A stretch of 64,000 bases of DNA, taken from contig NZ_CP050177.1 of assembly GCF_011694815.1 (NCBI RefSeq), positions 3,275,001 to 3,339,000 on the forward strand. Reading direction: 5' to 3'. Positions 49,938 to 55,714 of the stretch are shown piece by piece. The notes beneath the pieces were generated by a model. That model worked only from the letters and a program-made list of their open reading frames with translations, was not told the DNA's origin and did no database searches. The stretch is from Streptomyces liangshanensis. GTDB taxonomy: Bacteria > Actinomycetota > Actinomycetes > Streptomycetales > Streptomycetaceae. Positions within the stretch are counted from its first letter, which is position 1; each line of letters begins with the position of its first letter. The translations under genes were made by a program, and so were the position numbers.

Positions 49938-51107
49938 GTGCCCGTACGACGACACGGCAGACTCGCTTCTGTCCTGACGTGCCTGGCGGCGGCCGCCGCC
50001 CTGCTGACCCTGACGGGAACCCCGTCCGCCACCGCCGCCCCACCCGTACCCCAGGCACCGCCGACGGCCGCCGCCGCCGCCGTCGCCGTACCGCCCGGCG
50101 TCACCGCGGGGATCGCGGTCTTCGACCGGCAGACCAACACCTTCACCGAACAGCAGGGCGCCACGGCCCGGTTCCGCTCGGCGTCCGTCGTCAAGATCCT
50201 GCTGGCCCTGGACCACGTCTGGGACCTCGGCCCCGCGTACCAGCTCCCGGCGGCCGACCGGGCACGGCTGGACACCATGCTGCGCAGCAGTGACGACGAC
50301 GCGGCCAACTACTACTGGGAGCGCAACGGTTCCGGGGCGATCATCGACCGGATGGTCTCCCGGCTGGGCCTGGCCGACACGGCGCGCCCGCCGGCGGCCT
50401 ACCCCGGCTTCTGGGGGTACACCGCCCTGTCGGCCAACGACACGGTGCGGATCTACCGGTACGTGCTCGACGCGCCCGCGCCCCTCCGGGAGCTGATCAT
50501 GGGCAACCTGCGGCAGTCGACCCGGTGCGCCTCGGACGACTTCGACCAGCACTTCGGGATCCCGGGCTCGTTCGCGCGTCCTTGGGCGGTGAAGCAGGGC
50601 TGGTCGGGCTTCGCGTCGGGCGGCTGCGGTACGGCTCCGGCGCCCGCGGCGGCCCGGGGCGTCGCGGCGCCCGCGGGCGCGGCGGCCGTCGACCTGGCCC
50701 GGCCCGCCCTCCACACCACCGGCACGGTCGGTACGAACGACCGCACCGTCGTCGCCGTGTACACGCTGCACCCGGAGGGCACCCCGTACGGCAAGGCGTA
50801 CACCGACGTGAACCGGCTGACGCGCTCCCTGGACGTCCCGGGCGCCGTCCGCCCGTCGGGCACCTGGTTCACCACGTGGGGGACGGGCGTCAGCGTCCGC
50901 CCGGGCGCGGCGGCCGGGGGCACCAAGGTGACCTCGCTGCCGCCGGGGGTGGAGGTGCTGGTGGACTGCCAGAAGGAGGGCCAGGTGGTGAACGTGCCGC
51001 CGTACACGAACCAGTGGTGGGCCCATCTCCCGCAGTACGGCGGCTACATGACGAACATCTACCTCAACTCACCCGGCAACGAACTGCCGGGCGTGCCCGT
51101 CTGCTGA
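49938..51107 (+). CDS. Secreted serine hydrolase (class A beta-lactamase-like)
   Basis: 389-residue exported protein. GTG 49938 follows GGGGGAGAT. A signal peptide (LTCLAAAAALLTLTGTPSATAA) precedes a beta-lactamase/transpeptidase-like domain: RSASVVKILLALDHVW supplies the SxxK motif, RSSDDDAANYYWERNG the SDN-like motif and WAVKQGWSGF the KTG position (here KQG). The C-terminus (WFTTWGTGVSVRPGA, VEVLVDCQKEGQVV, NQWWAHLPQYGGYMTNIY) looks like an SH3-type wall-binding domain. KQG and SDD suggest it may not hydrolyse beta-lactams. Its last 49 bp overlap the convergent DUF4328 gene. Confidence 0.84.
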   Translation: MPVRRHGRLASVLTCLAAAAALLTLTGTPSATAAPPVPQAPPTAAAAAVAVPPGVTAGIAVFDRQTNTFTEQQGATARFRSASVVKILLALDHVWDLGPAYQLPAADRARLDTMLRSSDDDAANYYWERNGSGAIIDRMVSRLGLADTARPPAAYPGFWGYTALSANDTVRIYRYVLDAPAPLRELIMGNLRQSTRCASDDFDQHFGIPGSFARPWAVKQGWSGFASGGCGTAPAPAAARGVAAPAGAAAVDLARPALHTTGTVGTNDRTVVAVYTLHPEGTPYGKAYTDVNRLTRSLDVPGAVRPSGTWFTTWGTGVSVRPGAAAGGTKVTSLPPGVEVLVDCQKEGQVVNVPPYTNQWWAHLPQYGGYMTNIYLNSPGNELPGVPVC

Positions 51108-51802
51108 CCACCGGCGGGCAGCGCGGGGCCGTTCACCTTCTCGTTCTGGCGCGCGGTGATCCTGCGGACCACCAGGATCGCCGCGACCGCCGCGACGATG
51201 TCGAGGACGTCGGACGACATCAGGACGACGAGCGCCTGCTGGATGGCGGCGCCGTCCTCCGCGTCCTCGTACAGCCGGGACGCGAGGTTCCCGTAGGCCC
51301 GGCTGACGAGCCAGAGCGCCCACCAGAGGTTGATCAGGCCGCTGGAGGCGCGCCTGGCGAGCGCGAGGTGGGGTTCCGGCGCGCTGGCGGTCCAGATGTC
51401 GAGGGCGACGCGGCGCGGGTACCAGAGGCTCAGGATGGGCACGATCCAGCCCCACACGGCCCAGCTGGGCCCCTTGCTGTGCGCGTCGGGGGCGAAGGTC
51501 TGCGCGTTGCCGCGCACCCGGTGGAACCAGATGACGAACACGACGGCGCAGGCCACGAGCGTCAGGATCTGCATCACACCGGTCACGCCGTAGAGGCTCT
51601 CGGCACGCTCGTACGAGTCGTCCGGCGCCTCGTCGTAGCTGCCCGACAGCAGGGACCCCCACGCGGAGTGCAGGTCGAATCCGACGACCAGCGAGAACAG
51701 GTCGGCCGCGATGACCACTCCGAGCATCACGACGACGGCTTGCGAGAGGCCGTTGGGCGAGCGCAGCGGGCCCGTTCCCGGCAGCACGGGATTGATGGAC
51801 AT
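51059..51802 (-). CDS. DUF4328 domain membrane protein
   Basis: 247 residues with about five membrane helices (AVVVMLGVVIAADLFSLVVGF, VMQILTLVACAVVFVIWFHRV, WAVWGWIVPILSLWYPRRV, LINLWWALWLVSRAYGNLA, LDIVAAVAAILVVRRI), the DUF4328 pattern with WFHRVR, GWxVP and WYPRR. Function unknown. ATG 51802 is chosen; the open frame to 51892 adds a non-conserved lead. The C-terminal 16 codons overlap the 3' end of the serine hydrolase gene on the other strand. Confidence 0.85.
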   Translation of the reverse strand: MSINPVLPGTGPLRSPNGLSQAVVVMLGVVIAADLFSLVVGFDLHSAWGSLLSGSYDEAPDDSYERAESLYGVTGVMQILTLVACAVVFVIWFHRVRGNAQTFAPDAHSKGPSWAVWGWIVPILSLWYPRRVALDIWTASAPEPHLALARRASSGLINLWWALWLVSRAYGNLASRLYEDAEDGAAIQQALVVLMSSDVLDIVAAVAAILVVRRITARQNEKVNGPALPAGGQQTGTPGSSLPGELR

Positions 51803-52132
51803 GAAAGTGGACCCCCCACAGGAAAAAGCCACCGACCGGCGGCCACCGCCGGAACATACGTGGGGTGACCACCAGCTGTCCACGGAGATCATCGAGCCGG
51901 GCGGCCGCGTGACGCACCCTCCCGGACGGGTCGCCGAGCAGCCGCACCGCCGACGCGGGTCTCAGCCGGGGTCGCCCGCGGCCCGGTACCGCACTTCGTC
52001 GTGAGAGTCCCGGCCGAAGCGCTCGACCAGCTCGTCCGTCGACTCCGGGTCGTCCCCCTACCCCGCCGCGACCCCCACGGGCCATGTCCCCATCCTGGCG
52101 GACATGGCCCGTCCACGAGGTTGGCATCACCC
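51803..52132. other. Gene-free region between the DUF4328 gene and the octamer array
   Basis: About 330 bp with no convincing gene on either strand. It must hold the DUF4328 promoter. A CCATGTCCC...GACATGGCC pair near 52082-52108 forms a small dyad; its role is unknown. Confidence 0.4.
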
Positions 52133-52318
52133 CGACACCACTCGGCGCCACCTGGTGCCACCCGGCGCCATTCCAGGTCCCCCAGCCCCCGCCGAACACG
52201 CTTGGCGCCACTCCCGCCAGGGCGGCGCCATCACGTTTCCGCAGGTCAGAGCCGCCCCAGCGACCCCCTCCGGGCAAGTGCCGCCAGACTGGTTGCGCGT
52301 GGCGCCACTTTGATGCCA
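52133..52318. promoter_or_regulatory. Array of TGGCGCCA-type octamers upstream of the RHH gene
   Basis: Octamers close to the palindrome TGGCGCCA lie at 52143, 52153, 52163, 52203, 52223 and 52300, with weaker ones at 52133 and 52311. Starts of the first main group are exactly 10 bp apart, and 52203 and 52223 keep the same 10-bp phase. The box at 52300-52307 sits between a possible -35 (TTGCGC, 52293) and -10 (CATGAT, 52317). Tandem 8-bp palindromes are how MetJ-type ribbon-helix-helix repressors bind, and the next gene encodes an RHH protein. Confidence 0.7.
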
Positions 52319-52328
52319 TGATGACGTC

Positions 52329-52847
52329 ATGGACCTCACCCCGTATGTCGACTCCCTCCGCCGCGAACTCGCGGTGGCCGCCGAAGCCGGTGGCGACGAC
52401 GCTCGTGCGTTGGCCGATCGGCTCACCGCTCCGCTGGAGTCGGCGGCCCGGCTGACCATGCTCAACGTGCTCTCCGCCGCGACGGACGAGATCACCCGCG
52501 ACCTCGCGCCCGGTTCGGTCGACGTACGGCTGCGCGGGGTCGACCCCGACTTCGTGGTGACACGGCCGCCCGCCGAGACCGCCGCCCCGGCCGAGCCGGC
52601 CGCACCCGTGGAGCCGCTCAAGGCGCACGCGCCCGCCGACGGCGACGAGGGGGGCACCGCCCGCGTCAACCTGCGCCTGCCCGCGCCCCTCAAGGCCCGC
52701 GCCGAGGAGGCCGCGAACCGCGAGGGCCTGTCGGTCAACGCGTGGCTGGTACGGGCGGTGTCGGCCGCGGTCGACGGCGGCGCCCGGCCCCGTACCCCGC
52801 AGAAGCCCCAGACCGTCGGACAGAGCATCACGGGCTGGGTCCGCTGA
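52329..52847 (+). CDS. Ribbon-helix-helix (HicB/Arc-type) regulator-like protein
   Basis: 172 residues. The N-terminal helical part (VDSLRRELAVAAEAGGDDARALADRL, LTMLNVLSAATDEITRDL in blocks) has no recognised fold; an Ala/Pro linker follows. Residues about 117-155 (ARVNLRLPAPLKARAEEAANREG, LSVNAWLVRAVSAAV) form a typical RHH DNA-binding domain like that of HicB-family antitoxins. No HicA-type toxin gene is adjacent. The ATG 52329 lacks an SD and lies a few bases past a possible -10, so the mRNA may be leaderless. It probably binds the octamer array and controls itself and the exporter genes (inference). Confidence 0.8.
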   Translation: MDLTPYVDSLRRELAVAAEAGGDDARALADRLTAPLESAARLTMLNVLSAATDEITRDLAPGSVDVRLRGVDPDFVVTRPPAETAAPAEPAAPVEPLKAHAPADGDEGGTARVNLRLPAPLKARAEEAANREGLSVNAWLVRAVSAAVDGGARPRTPQKPQTVGQSITGWVR

Positions 52848-52964
52848 CGGTCCGCCAACGGCCGCCGACGACACCCGCACCCCACGCCCCGTACCACTCC
52901 CTCACCCACCCATCACGTCCCCACCAGCGGGGACGCACCCCAGCCCCAAGAGGACGGGACCACC

Positions 52965-53810
52965 ATGCCTTCTTTCAGCACCCCCCTGCCGATCTCCGTG
53001 ACCGCCCGCGTGGACGCCGGATCCATCCAGTTCACCGCCACCGACCGCACCGACACCGTGGTGACCGTGGCCCCCCGCGACCCGAAGAAGGACCAGGACG
53101 TACGGACCGCCGAGCAGACCGAGGTCACGTACACGAGCGGAGTCCTGACCATCAGGACGCCCAAGCAGCGCTACCTCCTCGGCCGCACCGGCACCGTCGA
53201 CGTGAGCGTCGACCTCCCCGCGGAGTCCGCCGTCGACATGACCGGCTCCTGGGCGCAGGTGCTCGGCGAGGGCCGGCTCGGCGAGGTGCGGGTGAAGACG
53301 TCGTCCGGCGACGTCCGCCTCGACACCACCGGCCCGCTCCACCTCACCGCCTCCCACGGCTCGATCACCGTCGAGCGGGTCGAGGGCCCGGCGGAGATCA
53401 CCACCAGCTCCGGCAGCATGCGCGTCGGTACGGTCGCGGGCGCCGCCGTCCTGAAGAACTCGCACGGCACCACCACCGTCGGCACCGCCACCGGCGACCT
53501 GCGCGTCAGCGGCTCCAACGGCGACATCATGATCGAGCACGCCGAGGACTCCGTCACCGCCACCACGGCCCACGGCACCCTGCGCGTGGCCGAAGTGGTG
53601 CGCGGCACGGTCCAGTTGGAGACCGCCTACGGGGCCATCGAGGTCGGCATCCGCGAGGGTACGGCCGCCTGGCTCGACGTCAGCGCGGCCTCGGGCCAGG
53701 TACGCAACACGCTCACCCCGTCCGACGCCCCCGAGCAGAGCGAGGACAAGGTCGAGGTCCGCGCCCGTACCCGCTACGGCAACATCGACATCCGCCGCGC
53801 CAGGGCCTGA
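52965..53810 (+). CDS. DUF4097 beta-strand repeat protein
   Basis: 281 residues with no signal peptide and a run of short beta repeats: VRVKTSSGDVRLDTTG, LHLTASHGSITVERVEG, ITTSSGSMRVGTVAG, VLKNSHGTTTVGTATG, LRVSGSNGDIMIEHAED, VTATTAHGTLRVAEV. This is the DUF4097 beta-helix-like fold (related to adhesin-like and LiaX proteins). Start ATG 52965 has AAGAGGA upstream. It is followed by the ABC exporter genes and preceded by the RHH gene, all co-directional. Function unknown. Confidence 0.85.
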   Translation: MPSFSTPLPISVTARVDAGSIQFTATDRTDTVVTVAPRDPKKDQDVRTAEQTEVTYTSGVLTIRTPKQRYLLGRTGTVDVSVDLPAESAVDMTGSWAQVLGEGRLGEVRVKTSSGDVRLDTTGPLHLTASHGSITVERVEGPAEITTSSGSMRVGTVAGAAVLKNSHGTTTVGTATGDLRVSGSNGDIMIEHAEDSVTATTAHGTLRVAEVVRGTVQLETAYGAIEVGIREGTAAWLDVSAASGQVRNTLTPSDAPEQSEDKVEVRARTRYGNIDIRRARA

Positions 53811-53876: not shown

Positions 53877-54926
53877 ATGCCTGAATCTGTCATGCCCATG
53901 CCCACCCCTGCCGCCGCAGGGACCGACCGCGCCGGCCACCCGTCCCCCGCCGCCATCTCCACCCTCGGCCTGCGCAAGTCGTACGGCGACAAGACCGTCC
54001 TCGACGGCATCGATCTCCGTATCCCCGCCGGGTCCGTCTTCGCCTTGCTCGGGCCGAACGGCGCCGGCAAGACGACCGTCGTGAAGATCCTGTCCACCCT
54101 CATCGGCGCCGACGGCGGACAGGCCCAGGTCGCGGGCCACGACATCGCCACCGCACCGGACAAGGTCCGTGCCGCGATCGGCGTCACCGGCCAGTTCTCC
54201 GCCATCGACGGCCTGATCACCGGCGAGGAGAACATGCTCCTCATGGCGGACCTGCACCACCTCCCCCGGCACGAGGGGCGGCGGGTCGCCGCCGGACTCC
54301 TCGACCGGTTCGACCTCACCGAGGCGGCGAAGAAGCCCGCCTCGACCTACTCCGGCGGCATGAAGCGCCGCCTCGACATCGCCATGACCCTCGTCGGCGG
54401 CCCGCGCATCATCTTCCTCGACGAGCCCACCACCGGCCTCGACCCCCGCAGCCGTCACACCATGTGGGGCATCATCCGCGAGCTGGTCTCCGACGGCGTC
54501 ACCGTCTTCCTCACCACCCAGTACCTGGACGAGGCCGACGAACTCGCGGACCGGATCGCGGTGTTGAACGACGGCAGGATCGCCGCCGAGGGCAGCGCCG
54601 ACGAGTTGAAGCGGCTCGTCCCCGGAGGACACGTACAACTCCGCTTCTCCGACCCGTCCGCCCACCGCGCCGCCGCCACCGCCCTGGACGGCGTCACCCG
54701 GGACGACGAGGCGCTCACGCTCCAGATCCCCCACGACGGCAGCCAGCGGGCCCTGCGCTCGGTCCTCGACCGGCTGGACGCGGCCGGCGTCGAGGCGGAC
54801 CAACTCACCGTCCACACCCCCGACCTCGACGACGTCTTCTTCGCCCTGACCACCCCGACCACCCCCGCCGCCCCCCACGCCGCCACCGGCTCCCCCGCCG
54901 CCACCACCCAGGAGACATCCCGATGA
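53877..54926 (+). CDS. ABC exporter ATP-binding protein, DrrA type
   Basis: 349-residue ATPase: STLGLRKSYGDKTVLDGIDL, Walker A GPNGAGKTT, signature YSGGMKRRLDIA, Walker B RIIFLDEPTTGLDPRSR, and the H-loop-equivalent TTQYLDEADELADRIAVL typical of daunorubicin-resistance DrrA proteins (Q-Y rather than H). The C-terminal extension (TLQIPHDGSQRALRSVLDRL, LDDVFFALT) is also DrrA-like. ATG 53877 has GGGAGGA 5 nt upstream. The stop overlaps the permease ATG (ATGA). The substrate is unknown; export of a lipid or drug is likely by family. Confidence 0.94.
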   Translation: MPESVMPMPTPAAAGTDRAGHPSPAAISTLGLRKSYGDKTVLDGIDLRIPAGSVFALLGPNGAGKTTVVKILSTLIGADGGQAQVAGHDIATAPDKVRAAIGVTGQFSAIDGLITGEENMLLMADLHHLPRHEGRRVAAGLLDRFDLTEAAKKPASTYSGGMKRRLDIAMTLVGGPRIIFLDEPTTGLDPRSRHTMWGIIRELVSDGVTVFLTTQYLDEADELADRIAVLNDGRIAAEGSADELKRLVPGGHVQLRFSDPSAHRAAATALDGVTRDDEALTLQIPHDGSQRALRSVLDRLDAAGVEADQLTVHTPDLDDVFFALTTPTTPAAPHAATGSPAATTQETSR

Positions 54927-55714
54927 GCGCCCTCGCCCTCGCCGTACGCGACTCGACCACGATGCTGCGCCGCAACCTCCTGCACGTGCGCCGCTACCCG
55001 TCCCTGACCCTGAACCTGCTGCTCACCCCGGTCGTTCTGCTGCTGCTCTTCGTCTACGTCTTCGGCGACGTGATGAGCGCCGGCATCGGGGGCGGCGGCG
55101 CCGACCGCTCCGCGTACCTCGCCTACCTCTTCCCCGGCATCCTGATGCTGACGATCGGCGGCACCACGATCGGCAGCGCGGTGTCCGTCTCGATGGACAT
55201 GACCGAGGGCATCATCGCCCGCTTCCGCACGATGGCGATCCACCGCGGCTCGGTGCTCATCGGGCACGTCGTGGGAAGTGTGATCCAGTGTGTGATGAGC
55301 GTGGTCCTCGTAGGGGCCGTCGCGGTGGCGATCGGCTTCCGGTCCACGGACGCCACCGCCGTCGAATGGCTCCTGGCGATCGGCCTGTTGACGCTCGTCT
55401 CGCTGGCGCTGACCTGGATTGCGGTCGGGATGGGCCTGTCCAGCCCCACCGTGGAGGCGGCCAGCAACAACGCCATGCCGCTGATGATCCTGCCGCTGCT
55501 CTCCAGCGCGTTCGTCCCGCTCGACTCGATGCCGGGCTGGTTCCGCCCGATCGCCGAGTACCAGCCCTTCACCCCGGCCATCGAGACCCTGCGCGGCCTC
55601 CTGCTCGGCACGGAGATCGGCCACAACGGCTGGCTGGCCGTGGCCTGGTGCCTGGCCCTCGCCGCCCTCGGCTACATCTGGTCGACGTCGCTCTTCAACC
55701 GCGACCCGAAGTAA
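54923..55714 (+). CDS. ABC exporter permease, ABC-2/DrrB type
   Basis: 263-residue permease with six membrane segments: LTLNLLLTPVVLLLLFVYVFG, AYLFPGILMLTIGGTTIGSA, VIQCVMSVVLVGAVAVAIGF, LLTLVSLALTWIAVGMGL and others. MDMTEGIIARFRTMAIHRGSVL is the coupling-helix segment of DrrB-like proteins, and FNRDPK ends it. It pairs with the upstream ATPase by an ATGA overlap. The stop region is duplicated downstream. Confidence 0.93.
   Translation: MSALALAVRDSTTMLRRNLLHVRRYPSLTLNLLLTPVVLLLLFVYVFGDVMSAGIGGGGADRSAYLAYLFPGILMLTIGGTTIGSAVSVSMDMTEGIIARFRTMAIHRGSVLIGHVVGSVIQCVMSVVLVGAVAVAIGFRSTDATAVEWLLAIGLLTLVSLALTWIAVGMGLSSPTVEAASNNAMPLMILPLLSSAFVPLDSMPGWFRPIAEYQPFTPAIETLRGLLLGTEIGHNGWLAVAWCLALAALGYIWSTSLFNRDPK

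Follow-up and report, generated by a model that had tools for sequence, protein, structure and literature searches.

A putative self-repressing ribbon-helix-helix regulator of a Toastrack/exporter module, with an octamer operator that probably overlies a leaderless promoter

MetJ, a ribbon-helix-helix (RHH) protein that regulates its own gene, reads 8-bp palindromic boxes that abut one another in arrays, with S-adenosylmethionine as co-repressor. In Arc, three residues of the strand read the bases and the half-sites lie about 11 bp apart. HicB is characterized by an N-terminal domain that is RNase-H-like.

The omega regulator recognizes NATCACN heptads, for which cooperative binding by polymerisation is suggested in passages of PMC4803016 that also name HicB as an exception to N-terminal DNA binding. 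An actinobacterial Toastrack-ABC operon with an RHH factor in place of the GntR-type regulator is mentioned in one sentence of PMC11237479, and the lunaemycin cluster table (PMC9866976, Table 1) enters lun1 and lun2 as unknown. Among the best matches in open-licence PMC text, none was recognised as dealing with the operator of the regulator described below.

Here, we report the analysis of an octamer array and of the RHH gene that follows it in a 64-kb stretch of DNA, hereafter the window, meaning the whole stretch analysed. From sequence comparisons, we hold it highly probable that the product of the gene at 52329 is a self-repressing RHH regulator of a Toastrack/exporter module, with its operator woven into a leaderless promoter.

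The regulator and its octamer array

The regulator gene and the part of it that encodes the putative DNA-binding domain are as follows.

52329..52847, plus strand: RHH regulator gene, 172 aa (Pfam, AlphaFold model)
52656..52778, plus strand: RHH domain, residues 110-150 (Foldseek, alignment), with R112, N114 and R116 as predicted base-reading residues

The original prediction had placed an RHH domain at the C-terminus, and the Pfam HicB model PF05534 indeed matches there, over residues 113-143 only (22.1 bits, cut-off 21). The AlphaFold model (mean pLDDT 82.7) features an N-terminal helix-helix-hairpin domain (helices 4-20 and 23-59, hairpin 63-78), a linker and the C-terminal RHH (helices 119-132 and 136-148), whose strand (R112-R116) precedes the two helices in sequence but is not formed in this monomer model. 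Foldseek relates the RHH part to Arc, NikA and CopG with probabilities of 0.84-0.97, all at E > 0.8, the best match being Arc 1bdv (probability 0.97, E 0.87); for the N-terminal domain, none of the best 50 of 61 matches was informative, and a sequence search returned no solved structure at E ≤ 1. R112 and R116 are invariant in the 109 rows of the model alignment, which holds 109 of 113 selected proteins. The C-terminal tail (residues 164-172, window 52818-52844) is conserved after a variable linker, G169 and W170 recurring in 90% or more of the 109 rows; it is modelled with low confidence and is a possible partner-binding motif.

The family is large: of 7998 candidates scored, 7812 proteins pass E ≤ 1e-3. 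In a listing of 120 homologues, its members go by the names HicB family antitoxin, hypothetical protein, Histidine kinase and TmcL, at least 35 bearing a HicB or toxin-antitoxin name and at least 3 that of 'Histidine kinase'.

The boxes (given without strand) and the putative promoter elements upstream of the gene are listed below.

52122..52129: distal box TGGCATCA, full TGRYRYCA match
52133..52140: weak distal box CGACACCA, from the sequence, on an 11/10-bp grid
52143..52150: distal box CGGCGCCA, from the sequence and pattern scan
52153..52160: distal box TGGTGCCA, from the sequence and pattern scan
52163..52170: distal box CGGCGCCA, from the sequence and pattern scan
52203..52210: distal box TGGCGCCA, from the pattern scan
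52223..52230: distal box CGGCGCCA, from the pattern scan
52293..52298, plus strand: putative -35 element TTGCGC, from column conservation in 80 named loci
52300..52307: core box O1 TGGCGCCA, slot -29 or -30, occupied in 152/187 homologues (119 + 33)
52311..52318: core box O2 TGATGCCA, slot -18 or -19, occupied in 151/187 homologues (134 + 17)
52317..52322, plus strand: putative -10 element CATGAT, from column conservation in 80 named loci
52322..52329: core box O3 TGACGTCA, slot -7, occupied in 114/187 homologues, its last base being the start-codon A

The window contains eight TGRYRYCA octamers, six of which fall within 52122-52329, a 208-bp segment ending at the regulator start codon. With up to one mismatch allowed, the whole window holds 34 octamers and is thus poorer in them than its shuffled versions (mean 54.7; at least 34 in 100/100 shuffles), so that the clustering of the octamers, and not their number, is non-random. 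The eight octamer coordinates of the original prediction all hold in the sequence and in a pattern scan: the exact TGGCGCCA stands at 52203 and 52300, versions with one mismatch at 52143, 52153, 52163 and 52223, and weaker copies at 52133 and 52311. Two full TGRYRYCA boxes, at 52122 and 52322, had been overlooked, as had a one-mismatch box, TGCCGCCA, at 52279; the box at 52322 shares its final A with the ATG that starts at 52329. The phasing that had been claimed for the upstream boxes exists in the form of a grid of 11- and 10-bp steps (52122, 52133, 52143, 52153, 52163, 52203 and 52223), but a second, separate 11-bp grid (52300, 52311 and 52322), which begins 77 bp from 52223, has to be added to it.

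A scan of the 7.7-Mb genome to which the window belongs for the pair pattern TGRYRYCA-N2-3-TGRYRYCA gave three positions: two belong to the regulator promoter, and one to an inverted repeat at another place. This second site of the genome (7403235, in L034) was rejected as a target; inspection by eye shows two octamer-like words in an inverted repeat (L034:2720-2770) that precedes a MerR-like ORF by about 28 nt and may be a hairpin or the operator of this ORF. Also by eye, a 13-bp inverted repeat (ACGGGCCATGTCC / GGACATGGCCCGT, 52077-52112) with a 10-nt loop and without a T run is found just upstream of the distal array. The intergenic region that carries the array is shared with a divergent DUF4328 gene (51059-51892).

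The promoter elements emerged from the 80 named loci, which are the best 80 of at least 360 relatives found and come partly from the same genomes as the set of 187 homologues. Column frequencies were first taken from the 71 of these 80 loci with box 2 at -18, a selection that fixes A-11 and constrains C-12 by construction, and were repeated on all 80: the -35 columns are T-36 in 78 loci, T-35 in 78, G-34 in 76 and C-33 in 76, and the -10 columns, with no selection on the box, are A-11 in 78, A-8 in 76 and T-7 in 78. The order across these loci is TTGC, box 1 at -29, box 2 at -18, a CATNAT-type hexamer at -12..-7 and box 3 ending on +1. In the window, this layout reads TTGCGC-18 bp-CATGAT-6 nt-ATG, the CATGAT starting with the CA that closes O2, running through a 3-nt spacer and ending with the T that opens O3. 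No Shine-Dalgarno sequence is visible before the gene, as originally noted, the CATGAT ending 6 nt ahead of the ATG, and a scan of 52000-53000 returned no consensus sigma-70 promoter or terminator. The layout looks like a leaderless promoter overlaid by its operator, with slots -29, -18 and -7 all inside the putative promoter. The box at 52300, originally singled out as the one that would block a promoter, does belong to this core, but the most conserved operator is the O1-O2-O3 triple, of which the two other members had been missed or called weak.

Conservation of the operator and its association with residue 114

A protein search found the regulator gene in 85 of 150 related genomes, its own genome included, and an alignment-based search found it in 139 of 394 genomes of the class, representing 53 of 137 genera; the closest named homologues among the matches listed are from Streptomyces. 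A set of 187 distinct homologues was obtained from 191 profile matches by removal of identical copies, L031-L033 and L035 having been left out beforehand; one of the 187 is a chimera (second copy in L072).

The original prediction called for a check of octamer conservation upstream of orthologues and, once run, this check went in its favour: a core box is present in 185/187 homologues, the exceptions being L193 and the first copy in L072, and in 80/80 named loci, 78 of which have at least two boxes. The 187 genes carry 490 boxes in the -60..+1 region vs a shuffle mean of 12.7; 177 have at least two and 106 at least three, while dinucleotide shuffles gave on average 12.5 genes with at least one box and 0.27 with at least two. 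Box positions peak at -29 (119), -30 (33), -18 (134), -19 (17) and -7 (114), and 201 adjacent pairs lie 11 bp apart within -40..+1. Upstream of -38, the commonest spacing becomes 10 bp (45/194). The distal region (-240..-61), considered in 186 genes, contains 246 boxes vs 10.5 in shuffles, with 127 of the 157 pair distances of up to 45 bp in the 10/11-bp classes. Box density per 61 nt is 0.028 in the genes' own coding DNA vs 2.62 in the core. An RTTLR subgroup (L146, L168, L171, L172, L180 and the Tsukamurella plasmid copy, L292) has asymmetric, non-palindromic boxes, TGACACCA/TGGTGTCA, suggesting a different half-site reading.

Among the well-filled columns of the protein alignment, the best predictor of box base 3 is residue 114 (R2 0.79), followed by residue 13 (0.55). 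Asn at this position, the centre of the predicted DNA-reading strand, goes with TGG..CCA boxes, and Ser or Thr with TGA..TCA: at base 3, the mean G fraction reaches 0.84 in the 107 Asn genes, vs 0.30 in the 26 Ser genes and 0.20 in the 53 Thr genes; the fraction falls below 0.5 in no Asn gene and exceeds it in 3 of the 79 Ser/Thr genes. The background GC, nearly equal in the three groups (0.677, 0.673 and 0.666, respectively), does not explain the association. In G093 and again in G096, two copies of the gene coexist, one with Asn and TGG boxes, the other with Ser and TGA boxes (L075/L086 and L081/L085); as both genomes are of one genus, the two pairs may represent a single event. This covariation lends support to the original proposal that the RHH protein reads the array. 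A tree of 133 of the 187 proteins, built with residue 114 masked after an 85% identity cut and removal of the chimera and of proteins shorter than 140 aa, shows three changes for residue 114 and five for the box class, and yields from one (supported branches) to three (all branches) independent pairs, too few for the phylogenetic pair test to be decisive, so that shared ancestry remains compatible with the residue/base association.

Gene neighbourhood and operator sites elsewhere

The regulator gene is followed in the window by three genes on the same strand.

52965..53810, plus strand: DUF4097 (Toastrack) protein gene (Pfam PF13349, 53 bits)
53877..54926, plus strand: DrrA-type ABC ATPase gene (NCBIfam TIGR01188, 315.3 bits, cut-off 312.45)
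54923..55714, plus strand: ABC-2 type permease gene (Pfam PF01061, 87.3 bits), overlapping the ATPase stop

The absence of a HicA toxin gene, already pointed out in the original prediction, extends to all the neighbours scanned, namely these three genes and, on the other side, the DUF4328 gene. A DUF4097 homologue lies within 700 nt downstream of the regulator in 106 of the 112 loci with enough sequence, and is missing nearby in the other six. ABC ATPase and permease homologues are found in 38 of 59 loci with long flanks. Among the 20/59 loci that lack the ABC ATPase, MMPL genes occur in L058 and L060, a GtrA-like gene (GtrA match below the Pfam cut-off) followed by an MMPL gene in L053, and a P450 gene directly after the regulator in L059. 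In the distant lineage of L095 (downstream segment 863-3678), the regulator and a DUF4097-like partner adjoin, by eye, pseudouridine-synthase-like, ribosomal L17-like and RNA-polymerase-alpha-like genes.

A search with the regulator returned 43 plasmid records and, at E ≤ 1e-5, no homologue in phage records. Streptomyces lunaelactis plasmid pSLUN1 (L290:3906-10096) carries the regulator, DUF4097, P450, ferredoxin, GtrA and MMPL genes in one block, the last two on the opposite strand; this module opens the lunaemycin cluster. Other named plasmids display the orders RHH-DUF4097-P450-ferredoxin, with MMPL on the opposite strand, and RHH-DUF4097-ABC-permease-P450-ferredoxin, and a Tsukamurella plasmid has RHH-DUF4097-ABC-permease.

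A 30-bp operator profile was built from 34 of 71 distinct in-register operators, chosen by hand and hence a picked sample. At E ≤ 0.01 it matched 65 of the 150 relatives, namely 64 of the 85 gene-positive genomes (60 at the regulator and four only elsewhere, G042, G060, G105 and G124) and one of the 65 gene-negative ones (G137, E 0.005). At E ≤ 0.005, in a draw of 150 genus genomes that overlaps the first and shares genomes with it, the profile matched 72/90 gene-positive genomes (in 70 of these no more than 170 bp from the regulator start) vs 0/60 gene-negative ones. In both draws the contrast is to some extent circular, because operators lie at the gene and served to build the profile; it mainly shows that the array has no other widespread use. 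In the 48 kb of pSLUN1 that were read, the profile matches at lun1 only, with boxes at -29 and -18 of this gene; lun1 may thus control export or self-resistance in the lunaemycin cluster.

Away from the regulator gene, the profile marks nine sites, six of which lie before P450 (G035 and G060), MMPL (G042, G068 and G515) or GtrA-like (G015) genes, three kinds of genes that elsewhere occur next to the regulator or downstream of it. Pfam matches bear out the two P450 and the three MMPL assignments. The G015 ORF, without a Pfam match at E ≤ 0.001, was placed by similarity: its identity is 67% with the gene found in the operon of L053 and 58% with the protein annotated as GtrA on pSLUN1. The G035 site has the start codon of the P450 gene on box 3, an arrangement identical to that of the regulator gene; it is weak (E 0.007) and no stronger than those of G105, G124 and G137 (E 0.005-0.009), which were not counted as targets, their adjoining genes being by eye not of the module. 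Together with the conserved gene order, the remote operators before module genes support the control of exporter genes that had originally been predicted.

A proposed switch, rival explanations and known systems

In the mechanism that we favour, the RHH repressor made from 52329 would bind its own operator, each TGRYRYCA octamer being the site of one dimer. Three dimers sitting on O1, O2 and O3 at intervals of 11 bp, or one helical turn, would mask the start point of the leaderless promoter together with its -10 element and the -35/-10 spacer and so shut it, and dimers on the 10-bp-phased distal boxes would extend or strengthen the complex. Residue 114 of the protein would set base 3 of the box. 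The putative operon combines the regulator and the Toastrack protein with an exporter, DrrAB-like ABC in the window and MMPL elsewhere, with or without P450, ferredoxin and GtrA-like genes; because it encodes an exporter, relief of repression would switch on export, the signal likely entering through the N-terminal domain or the Toastrack protein.

The evidence on the array leaves some room for an activator. The protein could bind the array and mainly activate, or both repress and activate, the distal boxes recruiting polymerase and the core boxes trimming the level: the distal arrays described above exceed the needs of promoter occlusion, and AmrZ, as described in the abstract of PMC3325190, offers the precedent of an RHH protein that both activates and represses. 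However, conservation is highest for the boxes in the -35/-10 spacer and on the start point, positions where a dimer, once bound, should keep polymerase out, and the distal boxes are less regular in the position histogram; we regard an activator as unlikely. That another conserved actinobacterial DNA-binding protein reads the octamers, the RHH gene being merely its target, appears very unlikely. Palindromic octamers suit many dimeric regulators, which speaks for such a reader, no tool result doing so; yet, among the columns tested, residue 114 follows the box base most closely, Asn and Ser copies in the same genome have different boxes, and the profile is absent at E ≤ 0.005 from 60/60 gene-negative genus genomes.

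Two further readings carry even less weight. An orphan or degraded HicB-type antitoxin, with the boxes as an ordinary toxin-antitoxin operator, would account for the Pfam match just above the cut-off and for the names borne by homologues, but a DUF4097 homologue rather than HicA is the neighbour in 106/112 loci, and both the confinement of the match to residues 113-143 and the helix-helix-hairpin N-terminal model, with no HicB among the structures listed, make this quite improbable. The octamers might finally be methylation or restriction marks, or repeats with no regulatory role, since GGCGCC or GACGTC, palindromes of the restriction type, occur within them; this finds no backing in any tool result, and the fixed slots relative to the start codon, the 10/11-bp phasing, the covariation with a protein residue and the under-representation of the one-mismatch octamer across the window leave it next to no probability.

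Under self-repression by the RHH protein, the octamer row is very probably the docking site of the gene's own protein, a switch kept before exporter-type genes in many actinobacteria, and a family often labelled as antitoxin very probably serves to repress exporter operons locally. With a reliable operator, targets could be traced in sequence data, also within antibiotic clusters whose tables enter the module as unknown (lun1 and lun2), the residue-base rule provides a one-residue test of RHH recognition, and the overlap of promoter and operator would constitute a compact design for tightly shut leaderless genes. More tentatively, and with doubts that outweigh our confidence, a class-wide actinobacterial family can be imagined in which the RHH repressor would sense its signal jointly with a cytoplasmic Toastrack protein: this partner or the exported compound would engage the new N-terminal domain and lift the repressor from the operator in its leaderless promoter, turning on exporter/P450 modules, including self-resistance in antibiotic clusters, with Asn = TGG..CCA and Ser/Thr = TGA..TCA as its code.

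The locus resembles MetJ in its arrays of 8-bp palindromic boxes, its predicted RHH reader and its putative autoregulation, but its boxes are 10-11 bp apart from centre to centre, with gaps of 2-3 bp, whereas those of MetJ abut. No MetJ model of Pfam or NCBIfam matches the regulator at E < 0.1, and no methionine genes are among the neighbours scanned. The original label 'MetJ-like' hence applies loosely, to the predicted dimers on repeated short sites, and fails on spacing and model matches. With Arc and CopG, the regulator shares the RHH fold; its R-x-N-x-R strand pattern resembles the three base-reading residues of Arc, to which it is also closer in spacing than to MetJ. It differs from both in that the RHH is C-terminal, behind an 80-residue domain without an informative structural match, and in its three core boxes and seven distal ones (in the window), each box being a predicted palindromic site for one dimer. 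The omega regulator of omega-epsilon-zeta is likewise an RHH reader of short repeated promoter sites, from which the present system departs by its octamers, their spacing and its exporter operons, in which no toxin gene was seen.

The likeness to HicB lies in the Pfam model that matches the RHH stretch; HicB membership was rejected in view of the lack of an adjacent HicA, the different modelled N-terminal domain, the different neighbourhood and the absence of a HicB structure from the best 50 of 61 Foldseek matches. The Toastrack/ABC operon of PMC11237479 also includes an RHH factor, and the passages drawn on here describe no operator, binding site, autoregulation or recognition residue. The lunaemycin genes lun1-lun6 (PMC9866976) form the same module in one block, with the difference that the table passage describes no regulation. 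By the features tested, the regulator is a member of neither MetJ nor HicB, and its action is probably of the general type known from Arc, MetJ and omega.
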